DNA of 32,171 nucleotides. It comes from Chthonomonadaceae bacterium. GTDB lineage: Bacteria > Armatimonadota > Chthonomonadetes > Chthonomonadales > Chthonomonadaceae. This document shows, one piece after another, positions 2,851 through 31,732 of this stretch. The stretch covers positions 1-32,171 of the forward strand of contig JANXSG010000247.1 of NCBI GenBank assembly GCA_025352825.1, in the 5' to 3' direction. How positions within the stretch are numbered: position 1 is the first letter of the stretch; each line of letters begins with the position of its first letter. Below the pieces are notes generated by a model that saw only the letters and a list, made by a program, of their open reading frames with translations, made no database searches and had not been told where the DNA came from. A program made the translations under genes and the position numbers.

Positions 2851-4077
2851 TCACTTCAGTTTAGGGTACCATCTTTTCACCTGGTCAAGGGCCCACTCTG
2901 GAGTTTTATCTTGGTGGCAGAGGTTACAACTGTTCGGGTTTGGCTTGCCAATAGATGCTGCCGGGGAGACGAAATTAAAGGTGTGATCCCGCGATTCAGC
3001 CCCCACAGAGTTCTCACCAGTTTTGGGCATGTGGCAGCTGATGCACTGACTGCCTGTACTATTTGGAGAATGGTGAGTATGTTCAGAAATTACTGCATAC
3101 TTCGGTCCAACGGTTTTTCCCGGTCCATGGCAAGTGAAACATAGTGCATTTGTAGAAGCAGACTTGATCGTCATCGAAACCTGCCTTGATCCATGTGAAT
3201 CGTGGCAGTTGGAACACTGGAGCCCTGCCGCATGCATGATGCTGTGTGTGAAGGTGTTGCCCTGCACTCGATTTTTATGCGCGGTACCATTGCTCCAGAA
3301 CTCGGAAGTCTGCTTATCCGCTTGAGGTTCAAATCCCTGCCAAAACTCCGAGAGTTTTTTCCCTGCCTGATATCCCACCGCCCAGGCATACTCGTTTCCT
3401 TTCGGTTTGCCTGCCTGATGGCAAGCAAGGCAGACCTCTATGGATCGTTCGGTGCTCAGCCTGGCGGGATTGACGATATTTTCGATGCTGGGCTGTTTTG
3501 AATGCGCTTTACCCGGACCATGGCAGCTCTCACAAGTAATGTTCTGCTCCGCCCAAGTGCTAGAAACAGGGTCTACTCCGGTGCTGTGGCAGCCCGCGCA
3601 GAGCTTGAAATTGGAACGAGTCTTCCAGTCTGGATGCAGAGGATACCACCAGTCCGCTTTGCCGTGATAAGGCTGCCATTTCTTATCTTTGATACTCCAC
3701 TGCCCAGGAAATACGACCTCCTGCCCATTCACTACTCCTATGAATCGCTGCTTCCATCGATGGCCAATGACCCACTTAACATCTTTTAGTTCGAACGTGC
3801 GATCTGGGCTTGGTATACTGAAATCAGCCAGAATAGTTCTGTTAGGTCCTTCTGAGATGGCAGGGCGGATCATTTTATTGTGCGCCGAATCCTTCCAGCT
3901 ATCGTAGTAAGTCTTATGGCACTCTGCGCACTTTTTCGATCCGGCATACTGCGTTTGATCCAGACGAGGCCAGGTCTCCGGCTGCACAGGGTCGGTATGC
4001 GCCCCACCAATGAACATCGAACTGCCAAGTCCCGCAAGGAGAAGACATAGCGCACTCAGGCAGAATAGTAGTTTCAT
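2851..4077 (-). CDS. Octaheme c-type cytochrome
   Basis: A 408-residue exported electron-transfer protein. A signal peptide covers roughly residues 1-25 (MKLLFCLSALCLLLAGLGSS). Eight CXXCH haem-attachment motifs are visible at residues 50, 160, 182, 216, 288, 313, 345 and 384. The first haem region and the spacing resemble the cytochrome c-554/doubled-CXXCH superfamily. Haem ligand histidines are plentiful (for example HHSPNSTGSQCISCH). No hydroxylamine-oxidoreductase crosslink tyrosine or nitrite-reductase CXXCK motif is apparent, so the substrate is unknown; electron transfer in the periplasm is the safe call. It has no partner oxidoreductase next to it, and the following gene on the same strand is an unrelated cytosolic protein. 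Confidence 0.85.
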   Translation of the reverse strand: MKLLFCLSALCLLLAGLGSSMFIGGAHTDPVQPETWPRLDQTQYAGSKKCAECHKTYYDSWKDSAHNKMIRPAISEGPNRTILADFSIPSPDRTFELKDVKWVIGHRWKQRFIGVVNGQEVVFPGQWSIKDKKWQPYHGKADWWYPLHPDWKTRSNFKLCAGCHSTGVDPVSSTWAEQNITCESCHGPGKAHSKQPSIENIVNPARLSTERSIEVCLACHQAGKPKGNEYAWAVGYQAGKKLSEFWQGFEPQADKQTSEFWSNGTAHKNRVQGNTFTHSIMHAAGLQCSNCHDSHGSRQVSMTIKSASTNALCFTCHGPGKTVGPKYAVISEHTHHSPNSTGSQCISCHMPKTGENSVGAESRDHTFNFVSPAASIGKPNPNSCNLCHQDKTPEWALDQVKRWYPKLK

Positions 4078-4108
4078 TTTAGATCTCCTGTAGCAGATGG
4101 AAAACAGA

Positions 4109-5149
4109 TTAGTTCCTCAGTCTTTCCCTTGTCGCCACTGCTATCGGTTCAAGCGCCTCATCCGGGAAAGGATATACAGAGCTAACATTTATTTCACACA
4201 AGACATAAGTGTCGTCACCGGAAGAAGTTTTCGGGCCGAATAGAAAATCAGCATCCCAGATGATCGGCAGCGACTCTGGTTCTATATGTAATATATGGCA
4301 CATAGCATCCAGCCATTCATTCTCCATTTTCATTTTAATCGGCTGAAAAGCAGTTGTATCTGGCGGGTAATAATGACGAGGGCCAGGTTGTGGTGCATGT
4401 CCGGAAGCACAGCCAGAAGGCGCGGGGAACAGCGCGTTGATCGCCTGGCGCCCAAATCCAACCACCTTATCGCCAGTGAGATAGCATCGTACCATGCCAT
4501 CGATTAGCCGATCTTGATAGGGCTGGTCTATGATACGGCCTGAACCATTGAAATAGACTTCAAACTGGTTAAAGAATTCTGCGAGAGGCAAATCTTGCTC
4601 AATACTGCCACGAAGTGCATGGCGGACACGGATGAGTTCGGGATCGGAGGGATGTTTTTCCACCTTCCAGACTCCGTTTCCACCATTGCCACGGTACTGT
4701 TTTAGAACTCTTGGCTTACCTTTCGCCAAACTGGCAGGGAGCTGCTCGCGAAACTGCTCTATGGTCGAATAAAGCTGAGTATCACATCCCCATCTCATTT
4801 CCCTTGTCAGGAACAAGACTTCTTTTGTTCCCATCTTTAGTATAACATCAGGATGGGCGCTGACAAATACACCTTTGCCAGATAATTCTCTGAGAAGATT
4901 ATCGAGTATGGTTCTATCGCACTCCTGTTCGATAGGGTTCACCCATACTAGAACACCGTCAACACCTGAAAGCTGATCTCTGACTTCGTCGGCGAATTCA
5001 TCGTTATAAACTGCCGGTTCCGCTTCTATCCCAACACCTCGCAGTACCTGAGCAACACCGCTGAAGCGATGTCCTACTAACGTGGCAGTATTCCTGGCTT
5101 CACGGTCGCCATGCCACAGCAGCGCCACTTTAGGTGATTTCACTGCCAT
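4109..5149 (-). CDS. Cj0069-family ATP-grasp-like protein
   Basis: A 346-residue cytosolic protein matching the Cj0069 family from end to end as I recall it: the opening VALLWHGDREAR, the AEPAVYNDEF and DGVLVWVNPI segments, the family signature SAHPDVILKMGTKEVLFLTR, and VLKQYRGNGGNGVWKVE, which looks like an ATP-grasp glycine-rich nucleotide loop. The C-terminal CEINVSSVYPFPD resembles the metal-binding E-x-N of ATP-grasp enzymes. The reaction is unknown; ligation of a carboxylate to an amine or thiol would be the class expectation. AAGGA lies about ten bases before the ATG at 5149. It sits 31 bases upstream of the cytochrome gene on the same strand and may be cotranscribed. Confidence 0.75.
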   Translation of the reverse strand: MAVKSPKVALLWHGDREARNTATLVGHRFSGVAQVLRGVGIEAEPAVYNDEFADEVRDQLSGVDGVLVWVNPIEQECDRTILDNLLRELSGKGVFVSAHPDVILKMGTKEVLFLTREMRWGCDTQLYSTIEQFREQLPASLAKGKPRVLKQYRGNGGNGVWKVEKHPSDPELIRVRHALRGSIEQDLPLAEFFNQFEVYFNGSGRIIDQPYQDRLIDGMVRCYLTGDKVVGFGRQAINALFPAPSGCASGHAPQPGPRHYYPPDTTAFQPIKMKMENEWLDAMCHILHIEPESLPIIWDADFLFGPKTSSGDDTYVLCEINVSSVYPFPDEALEPIAVATRERLRN

Positions 5150-5300
5150 TATCGTAGGTTCCTTCTTTCATGTAGTGTTTAGTTCATCTAATTGCAGCAC
5201 AAAATATCGAGTGTGGGACGATGATATGATAGCATAAGCCTCATACAAAAGCCCCAAAGTAGTTGAACACTATTCACTCCCTCACCCCCCGGGTTGAAGT

Positions 5301-5372
5301 GACGCGGCACTAAAGTACCGGTCTGGAATTGCGAAGCCCATCTCCGGTCGCTTCGGCTCCCTGCATGGGCTG
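5301..5372 (+). repeat. Dispersed repeat A, copy 1
   Basis: About 72 bases starting GACGCGGCACTAAAGTACCG and ending CCCTGCATGGGCTG. A nearly identical inverted copy is at 5962-6028 and a direct copy at 31644-31716. The differences between copies are a few substitutions, so spread is fairly recent or the sequence is under constraint. The tail GCCCAT...ATGGGC can pair, giving a hairpin of about 35 bases. Confidence 0.8.
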
Positions 5373-5471
5373 AATTCAGTTTCGATTTCCGATTCTTGTG
5401 GGTGGACTCGGATGTATCACGCTAACCTTGCAGGGGAAAATAAATGACATTTCCGCTTCGATAGCCAGATA

Positions 5472-5942
5472 TTGAGTGTAGATCAAGATCAATCATTCGA
5501 ACTTGCAGGAAGTCGGCGAGTGCATAATGAATTAACAGATGACACTCTATTATCTCGAAGGATAACCCAGAAGCTATGCCACGTCAATCAGGTCGTGCTC
5601 GATACCGATACCTGGGAAAGATCGGCAGCATATGTACTGGAGACACATCATAGTGTTCAATGTTGTGTCCGTAACGACCATCTCGGATTCAGTATTCCCT
5701 ATGAATACGATGGTGTTGCACATGCCTATTTCCCAGATTTTATTATTCGCCTTAAAAGTGGGCTTATGGTAATCTTTGAAGAAAAAGGATATTTAACCGA
5801 CATAGTAAATGCTAAAACAGAAGCCGCAAAACGCTGGACCCGTGCAGTGAATCAGAGCGGTAAATTAGGCAGATGGTATCATCACATTAATGTGACCCCA
5901 CCGCTTTTGTCAGAGGAGCTATCCGAAATCGCTTTAATGTAA
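5472..5942 (+). CDS. PD-(D/E)XK nuclease fragment of a type III restriction enzyme
   Basis: A 156-residue frame corresponding only to the C-terminal nuclease domain of a type III restriction subunit, a protein normally near 1000 residues with a large helicase part. Recognisable pieces are WERSAAYVLETHHSVQCCV, NDHLGFSIPYEY, then YFPDFIIRLKSG...VIFEEKG, which supplies the PD...ExK catalytic residues, and KRWTRAVNQSGKLGRWYHH. The catalytic Asp, Glu and Lys all appear intact. An in-frame TGA 27 bases before the TTG start shows the helicase part is not attached here, and no methyltransferase (Mod) gene is nearby. The start has no strong ribosome binding site. It is either a captured remnant or, less likely, a free-standing nuclease. 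Confidence 0.75.
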   Translation: MSVDQDQSFELAGSRRVHNELTDDTLLSRRITQKLCHVNQVVLDTDTWERSAAYVLETHHSVQCCVRNDHLGFSIPYEYDGVAHAYFPDFIIRLKSGLMVIFEEKGYLTDIVNAKTEAAKRWTRAVNQSGKLGRWYHHINVTPPLLSEELSEIALM

Positions 5943-5961
5943 TATTCAAATGCAATTAGGT

Positions 5962-6028
5962 CATGCAGGGAGCCTAAGCGACCGGAGATGGGCTTTGCAA
6001 ATCCAGACCGGTACTTTAGTGCCGCGTC
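5962..6028 (-). repeat. Dispersed repeat A, copy 2 (inverted)
   Basis: Reverse complement of the copy at 5301-5372, running from the CATGCAGGGAGCC end to GCCGCGTC. The two copies face each other across the nuclease fragment and form the inner inverted repeat of the element. Confidence 0.8.
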
Positions 6029-6118
6029 TATCCAACCGGGGGGTGAGGACTGAAATATGCGTTTGCACTTACTTTTGCAATTAGCCCAGAAGAATGAGAG
6101 AAAATCAACGTTTTGATT

Positions 6119-12592: not shown

Positions 12593-12689
12593 GATGGTTC
12601 CTCTAATATATGATAGGTACTATTGTATCAAATATGTGGAATTTTGTCGATTGCATAAAGCAATAGTTTCATGTGCTTCGGAGTAGCCT

Positions 12690-12938
12690 TTTACAAAAGT
12701 CTCAAAATGGTTAAAATGCTCTTCACGCCCTCACCCCCCGACCACCTCTCCCAAAAACAGGAGAGGGGGTGACTATGGCACGATTATTTCAGTATTATAT
12801 TGGGTTTTGATCTTACTATAGGCGCGTATTCGTGAAATGGGAGATAGGAAACCAACGATTTAAAGCTCCCCCTCTCCTGTTTTTGGGAGAGGGGGTCGGG
12901 GGGTGAGGGCAGAAATACGCGGCGCATACAACTTTTCC
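12690..12938 (+). mobile_element. MITE-like element, copy 1
   Basis: About 249 bases with no gene. Ends: left TTTACAAAAGTCTC, then CTTCACGCCCTCACCCCCC; right GGGGGGTGAGGGC..ATACGC..ACTTTTC. Just inside each end is a hairpin with a ten-base stem (CTCTCC...GGAGAG within C and G runs, loop around AAAAAC). The 100-base centre is about 85% identical by eye to the inverted copy at 20607-20857. The rest of 12593-12997 is AT-rich spacer before the response regulator. Confidence 0.7.
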
Positions 12939-12997
12939 GAGCGCAGTCTCAGAAAAGACCTGGGATCTAACTCCTTAAGAATAAGGATTGAAATAGT

Positions 12998-13624
12998 TTG
13001 AAACCTCCTATTCGCGTACTTATTGCAAACAGCAACACGATCTTCCGTGAGGGGCTAAAGAAAATCCTCGAAATGGAGCCCGATATCGAGATAGTGGGCG
13101 AGGCATCGGATACTCTAGAAACTGTTTCAAAATATCTCCGACATCTCCCCGATATCACCATTATGGATTTGCGTTTACCGGAAACAGAGTGCACGGACGC
13201 AATAACAGCAATTCGGAAAGAGAACTCGCATGCACGAATTGTCATTCTTACTTCCTATGGGAGTGAAGAAGATATTATTCGCGGACTTTATCTTGGAGCC
13301 AGCGGATATCTGCTCAAAGATTCGTCACCAGAAATAATTATTCAGACTATCCGTGCAGTTATTTCTGGTGAAGAGAGCCTCTCCCCAGAGATTGCCGCCA
13401 AAGTTACAAAACACGCTGCTTCGAAAAAGCTTTCCGAATGCGAACGCGCCGTTCTCGATAATATGGCACTGGGAAAGAGTAATTCACAGATCGCGGAATC
13501 GCTCACACTGTCGGAAAGTACCATCAAGTTTCATGTGAACAACATCCTTTTCAAGCTCGAAGCTGCCAATCGTACTGAGGCTGTTGTGAGTGGGTTGAAG
13601 CGGGGGCTGATTCGTTTGAGTTAG
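12998..13624 (+). CDS. NarL/FixJ-type response regulator lacking the acidic pocket
   Basis: A 208-residue two-domain protein. The receiver domain (1-120) keeps the phospho-acceptor D57 in ITIMDLRLPE, T85 in VILTS and K107 in YLLKDSS. The metal-binding acidic pair, normally the DD after the first strand, is replaced by N11-S12 (VLIANSNTIFREGL). The C-terminal LuxR-type helix-turn-helix is intact: LSECERAVLDNMALGKSNSQ, STIKFHVNNILFKLEAANRTEAV. No histidine kinase is nearby. Loss of the pair usually weakens Mg-dependent phosphorylation, so it may act without phosphorylation or sense something else. Start TTG at 12998 follows AAGGA with normal spacing. Confidence 0.85.
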   Translation: MKPPIRVLIANSNTIFREGLKKILEMEPDIEIVGEASDTLETVSKYLRHLPDITIMDLRLPETECTDAITAIRKENSHARIVILTSYGSEEDIIRGLYLGASGYLLKDSSPEIIIQTIRAVISGEESLSPEIAAKVTKHAASKKLSECERAVLDNMALGKSNSQIAESLTLSESTIKFHVNNILFKLEAANRTEAVVSGLKRGLIRLS

Positions 13625-13707: not shown

Positions 13708-13838
13708 TTGAACCGCATAGACACAGAGAGCGCAGAGACATGCTGAGGAAATACATAAACCTAGAAGATTAATCATTACTTTTCAATTCTTTCATTCTCT
13801 AAATATTTCTCTGCGCTCTCTGTGTCTTTGCGGTTCAA
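13708..13838. repeat. Inverted-repeat element with 33-base ends
   Basis: 13708-13740 and 13806-13838 are inverted copies differing at two positions; they begin TTGAACCGC and contain ACACAGAGAGCGCAGAGA. The 65-base centre is AT-rich and non-coding. The rest of 13625-14009 holds a C-rich fragment and the upstream region of the MhqO-like gene; no gene is seen. It could act as a bidirectional terminator or be a small MITE. Confidence 0.75.
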
Positions 13839-14009
13839 AAAAATATTTGTAGGGATTGGCGCTCGACTAATCGTCTGTGCCCCTGTCGCATTTATTTTGT
13901 ACAATTATCGACATTTGCAGCTATCTCTATTACAAAACCGATCTTTCGGATAGGTATTCATTCACATCCGCAGCCGTATAGATTAATATATTCCGATGGG
14001 AGGTTTTGA

Positions 14010-20549: not shown

Positions 20550-20928
20550 TAGCCGCAAAAAAGCACATAATGCGCAAAGTAACTATTGCATACATACTTG
20601 AGGTAATTGCAAAAGTCAGTGCAAAAGCATATTCCAGCCCTCACCCCCCGACCCCCTCTCCCAAAAACAGGAGAGGGGGAGCTTTAAATCGTTGGTTTCC
20701 TATCTCCCATTTCGCGAGATATGTGCTTCTAGTAAGATCAAAACCCTATATAATATTGAAAACCCCATGTCATAGTCACCCCCTCTCCTGTTTTTGGGAG
20801 AGGGGGATGGGGGGTGAGGGCGTGAAGTGTGTTTTAACCTTTATGAGACTTTTGCAAAAGGCTCACTTGTTGAACAATTTATTGTGCTTAGAAATTCTAG
20901 ATAGTTTTTTTGTGCTTTTTTGCGGCCA
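20550..20928. repeat. Inverted pair TAGCCGCAAAAAAGCACA flanking the inner element
   Basis: 20550-20567 and 20911-20928 are inverted copies matching 17 of 18 bases. They belong to the same repeat type as 15643-15751 and 2815-2838, here interrupted by the MITE-like copy. Confidence 0.65.
20607..20857 (-). mobile_element. MITE-like element, copy 2
   Basis: 251 bases bounded by perfect 11-base inverted ends TTGCAAAAGTC and GACTTTTGCAA. Inside are CTCACCCCCC/GGGGGGTGAG and two hairpins with ten-base stems. It is the inverted counterpart of 12690-12938. It is non-coding, although an accidental frame runs through part of it. Confidence 0.75.
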
Positions 20929-29534: not shown

Positions 29535-29586
29535 GATATTAGCTGATCTAACTGCAAAATTTACAGATATAATACATTTGAACATT

Positions 29587-29706
29587 AACCGCGAATTACG
29601 CCAATTGCGCGAATGGATGCATAATATTGTTCTGAAAATCATATCTAATGAACAGATGAATTCTGCCAATAAAATTTTTTTTGCGCAATTGGCGTAATTC
29701 GCGGTT
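29587..29706. repeat. Inverted-repeat element with perfect 24-base ends
   Basis: 29587-29610 and 29683-29706 are perfect inverted copies starting AACCGCGAATTACGCC, separated by 72 AT-rich bases. Non-coding, between DUF1501 and the isomerase-like gene. Folding as RNA would give a long stem, so it may terminate transcription; equally it is a small MITE. Confidence 0.75.
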
Positions 29707-29785
29707 TATTTAAGAAATAATGATATCCATCCACACCTGTATAGAAGGTTAGTCTTAGTGGAATGAATTCGAAGGAGATATCGAT

Positions 29786-31498: not shown

Positions 31499-31591
31499 GG
31501 GGATGTGAAAGTAATGTGTTTTCCGGGAGTTGAAAACTCCCGGCCAGAAAAAACAGGCGTCTTTCAGACGCGTTTTCCGCCCACAGGGCGG
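31499..31591. repeat. Dispersed hairpin repeat, second copy
   Basis: 31499-31572 matches 329-412. It adds clear hairpins: CCGGGAGT...ACTCCCGG (31523-31543), GCGTCT-TTC-AGACGC (31557-31571) and CCGCCC-ACA-GGGCGG (31577-31591). 31478-31959 contains no gene that I can support; an accidental frame runs through the repeats. Confidence 0.65.
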
Positions 31592-31643
31592 TTGGCCGAA
31601 GGCTTCCATGATAGGTATTTCATTGCGCAGGCGATAAGGATGA

Positions 31644-31716
31644 GACACGGCACTAAAGTACCGGTCTGGAATTGCAAAGCCCATCTCCGGTCGCTAGATG
31701 CTCCCTGCATGGGCTG
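31644..31716 (+). repeat. Dispersed repeat A, copy 3
   Basis: Direct copy of 5301-5372 (GACACGGCACTAAAGTACCG through TGCATGGGCTG), here without the nuclease fragment or element ends. It shows that repeat A moves or is copied independently of the element at 5244-6080. Confidence 0.8.
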
Positions 31717-31732
31717 AGAATCCCGATTTAGT

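Follow-up and report, generated by a model that had tools for sequence, protein, structure and literature searches.

Positions 5301-6028 of the window (the whole 32,171-nucleotide stretch analysed here, which is contig C261 of a 4.87 Mb assembly in 298 contigs, 95% complete) hold two ~73-bp copies of a repeat, A, inverted and enclosing a 164-codon open frame for a restriction-nuclease domain. Elsewhere in the genome the same ends enclose a Y1 transposase gene (C294:13237-13842). We read 5301-6028, with a probability of roughly 0.6, as a non-autonomous REPIN/TIRtron-like unit of the same family that has captured a nuclease fragment; the fragment is probably a passenger on a small bacterial mobile element.

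Anatomy of the nuclease unit and its surroundings

Inspection of the unit reveals inverted arms of 96 nt that are 86% complementary (5286-5381 and 5948-6043). The left A copy (5301..5373, plus strand) matches the A consensus at 95.9%, and the right, inverted copy (5962..6028, minus strand) matches positions 1-67 of the consensus at 100%. Between them lies the nuclease frame (5472..5942, plus strand), with a possible start at TTG 5472 or GTG 5520; a putative GTG start has AGGA upstream by eye, and the stop codon (5940-5942) stands 19 bp from the right A arm. The first-pass annotation had proposed a second inverted pair flanking the nuclease domain at the centre of a larger element, and these arms bear it out.

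Judged from its sequence, 5472..5942 encodes the C-terminal PD-(D/E)XK domain of a BPTD_3080-type restriction enzyme. The NCBIfam model NF046055 (restr_BPTD_3080) matches residues 32-151, counted from TTG 5472, with an E value of 5.5e-36 and 123.9 bits over profile positions 847-967 of 970, so that the match covers only 121 of 970 positions at the C-terminal end and falls short of the curated full-length cut-off of 800 bits. PADLOC REase_III scores 20.5 bits on the protein, and a search with Pfam profiles returned nothing above cut-off. The protein was aligned with 28 homologues found in relatives: it retains 21 of the 22 columns in which conservation reaches 85%, among them D89, E103 and K105 of the PD-(D/E)XK motif. 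The 164 codons are free of stops; when the unit interior is shuffled 2000 times, an equally long stop-free frame arises 3 times. The earlier claim of a frame without internal stops and with intact catalytic residues therefore holds, as does the claim that the helicase part is gone: a search of the whole window using 643 aa of a homologue as query detected neither a helicase part nor any other restriction remnant.

The closest homologue of the nuclease is only 47% identical, the unit is present in a single copy in the genome, and the named-genome collection contains no relatives of the protein. A PDB sequence search gave no meaningful match (best E 0.91), and a single-sequence structure prediction has a mean pLDDT of 34. 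Solo nuclease frames in the relatives examined are mostly truncated by contig ends or adjoin gene remnants, leaving an independent family of solo nucleases unsupported. One relative carries, on its own, a C-terminal piece from this nuclease family (G002:C1, L139, ~3784-4215), the start of which looks frameshifted by eye and at which neither inverted ends nor a helicase part were detected.

Read from the sequence, the whole unit appears to interrupt an outer, MITE-like repeat in its palindromic centre. The interrupted left remnant of this repeat (5244..5290, plus strand) matches 12719-12740 (91% for 5270-5291) and, inverted, 20809-20833, and the right remnant (6037..6088, plus strand) matches 20599-20650 in inverted orientation (88%) and C101:2238-2280 (91%). 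Two intact gene-free copies lie in the window at 12685..12920 (plus strand) and 20599..20863 (minus strand), and the 88% and 91% matches confirm the earlier observation that the outer ends resemble those of two gene-free elements. The element at 12640-12960 occurs at no fewer than 40 places in the genome (40 of 421 candidates were scored), and none of those 40 scored places is a gene-bearing copy; it is the A ends that recur in pairs around genes. The proposal that the outer ends carry the gene thus fails, and what survives of the Pack-MITE-like reading is a gene fragment between mobile-looking ends, the carriers being the inner A repeats. In 348 kb of genome searched, no outer-repeat copies with an uninterrupted short centre were seen. 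On C101 (L030, 2238-2611) a further outer-repeat copy adjoins an A repeat, forming another mosaic of both families.

Near its right end the window holds a B repeat (31577..31626, minus strand, 82% to consensus) and, divergent to it, a lone A copy (31644..31717, plus strand). A further REP-like repeat, found in two copies 79% alike at 355-412 and 31515-31572, has the stem GGGAGTTGAAAACTCCC, and its copy at 31515 has a second stem, GCGTCTTTCAGACGC. It is likely a third family, since the two copies share the two-hairpin plan of A and B. More gene-free inverted pairs lie at 13708-13838 and 29566-29727, with arms of 45 and 48 nt; neither came up as A or B.

Repeats A and B and the transposases they enclose

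A and B have the common core GGCACTRAAGTACCSGTCTGG and differ in their inner halves. The core has 158 genome matches at three or fewer mismatches (0 for the reversed control), and the inner part of A is found at 84 places. A census of 104 segments (388 kb) around the A and B places from the genome searches counts 92 A copies and at least 70 B copies, the latter a lower bound because B places were drawn from 100 of the 158 core matches. Each repeat folds into at least two hairpins on one strand, B more strongly (-17.8 kcal/mol; mononucleotide-shuffle mean -11.2, SD 2.3) than A (-13.0 kcal/mol; mean -9.6, SD 2.1). Across 150 relatives the A arm gives short matches only, in 3 genomes; the exact A core has no match in the named-genome collection, and an Rfam search over 7 sources returned no matches. 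Assignment of A to the CGTC-tagged REP family was considered but not adopted: A starts with GACG and its complement ends with CGTC, but the tag and tail lie on sides opposite to those of the published form.

Only two Y1_Tnp genes are present in the genome, and each is enclosed by an inverted pair. The TnpA gene on C294 lies between A+ at 13237 and A- ending at 13842, with the arms 464 bp apart; these arms form a 94-nt inverted repeat of 94% identity (L156). The gene on C171 (2935-3303, minus strand; L138) lies between B+ at 2782 and B- ending at 3386, 495 bp apart. Both exceed the cut-off of 23 for PF01797, the C294 protein at 94 bits. The latter also passes the IS200/IS605 model NF033573 (72.1 bits, cut-off 55) and stays far under the cut-off of 80 for the REP-associated model NF047646 (REP_Tyr) at 29.4 bits. 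Its motifs, YIYNQKQHH, DHVH and WQ, fit TnpA_Y1 subclass 1.2 of Quentin et al. 2018, as far as motifs can tell. In the C171 protein, YIENQKTHH and WQ are present, but DRIH stands in place of the HUH motif, possibly reflecting an inactive protein or an assembly error. Relatives of the C294 protein occur in 16 plasmid records, all below 60% identity.

Enclosure of the transposase by inverted arms extends to relatives across the phylum. A protein search with the C294 TnpA gave matches in 68 of 201 genomes, its own included, and 30 TnpA loci (again including its own) were analysed. The Y---Q--HH motif was read in 28 of the 30. Inverted arms within 300 bp (E≤1e-4) flank 25 of the 30 genes, or 24 of 29 in relatives alone, compared with 1 of 50 control windows placed 950 bp away; direct repeats are also found at 17 of the 30 loci. 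The arms differ in sequence among relatives, and many consist of a stem with a TGAA/TAAA loop followed by a stem with a CTGC/CTTC loop. In G130 the arm matches 15 places, the sole close pair being that around TnpA, and no passenger unit was found among them. A transposase in another relative (G135:C375, L163, ~1360-1985) has 79-nt inverted arms that are 100% identical, making it a candidate for a recently active element.

Pairing, arm kinship and mode of insertion

To describe how the repeats are arranged, neighbouring copies in the 104 census segments (388 kb) were sorted by distance and orientation. Four A-A neighbours lie 200-1100 bp apart, and all four are convergent. They enclose the C294 TnpA gene, the nuclease (C261), a 263-aa frame (C41) and an interior with several shorter frames (C64), the last of which looks decayed. 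Random uniform placement, which ignores clustering of the repeats in intergenic DNA, yields an expected 0.38 convergent long A-A pairs, with four or more in 0.1% and three or more in 0.9% of runs. At the same distance B-B neighbours comprise one convergent pair (the C171 TnpA unit) and one divergent pair, and the two A-B pairs point in the same direction. At up to 200 bp, A-B pairs are convergent in 15 cases, divergent in 8 and in the same direction in 8; A-A pairs are convergent in 3 and in the same direction in 5; and B-B pairs are convergent in 1 and in the same direction in 3. At short range, orientation shows only a partial bias, resembling that of mosaic REP clusters.

The arms of the long pairs also resemble one another. 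The comparison used the 49 full-length copies of the 92 A repeats, which include both arms of the TnpA and C41 units and, for the nuclease unit, the left arm. These arms have a mean identity of 0.951, a value that 0 of 5000 random A sets reach; the random sets average 0.864. With the decayed C64 arms added, mean identity is 0.915 (p 0.0022). This likeness, as a comparison of sequences, ties the passenger units to the A subfamily of the transposase unit, although a C160 copy and one C17 arm are closer to the transposase arms than the passenger-unit arms are. The C41 unit is single-copy in the genome. Its 263-aa protein has one homologue (36% identity) in 200 relatives, around which no inverted repeats were seen on a contig that ends nearby. 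The units enclose A+T-rich DNA, with a GC content of 0.37-0.43 where the window as a whole has 0.48, and the intact frames of the two passenger units, nuclease and 263-aa protein, are foreign-looking at GC 0.39 and 0.43.

In the 17 convergent pairs whose ends are clearly defined, no target duplication was found: match lengths sum to 14, against a mean of 19.5 under permutation. This argues against a DDE-type MITE; insertion without target duplication is what is expected of Y1 transposases. The plant Pack-MITE model invoked by the first-pass annotation, with terminal inverted repeats and the target-site duplication of a DDE transposon, is accordingly a poor fit, as the A ends pair around a Y1 transposase and leave no such duplication. 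Insertion into palindromes was considered as a general rule and set aside: flank complementarity is striking by eye at the nuclease unit and at C294, but over 22 convergent pairs it does not exceed permutation (p 0.68 and 0.48). Relatives have orthologues of the two flanking genes at ~70% identity, and the best relative (G009) carries them on separate contigs; neither a syntenic empty site nor a full-length gene at the corresponding position was found.

Explanations for the unit and its place among known systems

If 5301-6028 is a non-autonomous unit, the transposase would recognise the hairpins of the A arms while the DNA is single-stranded at the replication fork, and would cut at the foot of the outer hairpin. 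The DNA between the arms would be excised and rejoined, and would insert elsewhere without target duplication. Anything lying between two convergent A repeats could travel in this manner; in this unit it would be the nuclease piece from the C-terminal end of a type III-like restriction gene. The A unit would later have landed in the palindromic centre of the outer gene-free repeat and split it. We infer this order of insertion, like the cutting, the excision and the past movement of the nuclease unit itself; the anatomy, the ends in common with the transposase unit, the pairing bias, the likeness of the arms and the lack of target duplications are observed.

Alternatively, as the first-pass annotation also allowed, the nuclease may be the last piece of a restriction gene that decayed in place, with two A repeats inserting independently of each other and the outer ends marking a third, older insertion. 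We consider this rather unlikely, and it keeps its weight because of the bare remnant of the same nuclease domain in G002, which, with no inverted ends or helicase part detected, indicates that such fragments survive without a carrier. Decay in place would sit well with the abundance of A repeats (92 found), which are often single, yet at 200-1100 bp all four A-A pairs are convergent; these are admittedly four pairs, one being the transposase itself. A broken gene with another large frame upstream on the same strand, at locus L076, is the kind of locus that decay would leave, but the window holds no other restriction remnant, and the nuclease stop codon lies only 19 bp from an A arm. The single-copy state of the nuclease and 263-aa units and the lack of passenger units at the 15 arm places of G130 count against a mobile unit, and the resemblance of the arms to those of the transposase unit counts against decay. 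The two accounts shade into one another, since a composite unit would likewise arise from two flanking insertions.

It is improbable, in our estimation, that the nuclease is a selected cargo, namely a working stand-alone enzyme that aids the element by cutting empty sites or rival DNA, in a role that might be comparable to that of TnpB in IS200/IS605 elements, or that serves host defence. The open frame, the conserved columns (21 of 22), the catalytic residues and the possible GTG start with its AGGA would suit such an enzyme; only the C-terminal domain of a far longer protein is present, however, in one genome copy with a nearest homologue at 47% identity, and the contents of the other units are unrelated or decayed. 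REPs are common around genes, and A and B could be ordinary REP-like intergenic palindromes that flank transposase genes by chance. ISs are also reported to use REPs as targets, in the available part of PMC1525189. We regard chance flanking as very improbable, given that both Y1 genes (2/2) lie within inverted pairs, as do 24 of 29 TnpA genes of relatives, mostly with arms of two-hairpin shape and differing sequence, compared with 1 of 50 control windows.

In the favoured reading, a non-autonomous unit with a captured nuclease fragment, the unit resembles two known systems. REPINs and REPtrons with RAYTs likewise have an inverted pair of short palindromes as the unit, presumed to be moved in trans by a Y1 enzyme; A and B differ in lacking the GTAG foot, in their transposase subclass, in their longer two-hairpin repeats and in their gene-bearing pairs. 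TIRtrons (TIRYT), as outlined in PMC3733652, place a tyrosine (Y1) transposase between long terminal inverted repeats, copies of which are also scattered through the genome in moderate abundance, as singles or dimers. The present family likewise has a Y1 gene (PF01797) with long inverted repeats nearby and dispersed through the genome. In contrast, TIRtron transposases share RAYT motifs in that outline, whereas the C294 TnpA passes the IS200 model and lies far below the REP_Tyr cut-off, and the available part of the description (PMC3733652) makes no mention of transposase-free passenger units.

Similarity to TnpA_Y1 subclass 1.2, as described in the accessible portion of PMC6006769, extends to Y---Q--HH, DHVH, WQ, a small protein and low copy number; the C171 protein departs from the DH[IV]H form of the second motif with its DRIH. 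That portion lists the subclass with REPs 'no', without IS properties and generally without typical terminal IS200 structures, whereas here inverted hairpin repeats bound the TnpA gene. IS200/IS605 elements, the transposase model of which the C294 protein passes, have subterminal hairpins rather than long inverted repeats such as its 94-nt arms at 94% identity. Mobile insertion cassettes use DDE-type IS ends, whereas the ends of the A units belong to the Y1/HUH family. The likeness lies in a non-transposase gene between inverted ends, presumed to be moved in trans, as outlined for e.g. qnrD in PMC3913671. Haloarchaeal PATEs and SMRs, following the partial account available in PMC3119063, are transposase-free palindromic elements without target duplication, and SMRs insert at palindromes within other elements, much as the A unit seems to have done. 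In the same account inverted terminal repeats are absent from PATEs, no transposase is known for SMRs, and cargo is described for neither.

Among the open-licence PMC records listed by our literature searches, none described REP or TIR pairs belonging to Y1 transposases with other genes between them. We tentatively propose that Y---Q--HH (subclass 1.2-like) HUH transposases may form a phylum-wide system with inverted double-hairpin ends, which in this genome would package unrelated genes (the nuclease domain and the 263-aa protein) into non-autonomous units transposed as single strands, a bacterial HUH-type counterpart of gene-capturing MITEs. The inverted hairpin arms at 25 of 30 transposases offer a concrete candidate for the DNA substrate of subclass 1.2 Y1 enzymes. 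If the gene-bearing pairs move, this kind of HUH transposition can capture fragments of genes, parts of restriction enzymes among them, and spread them through bacterial genomes.
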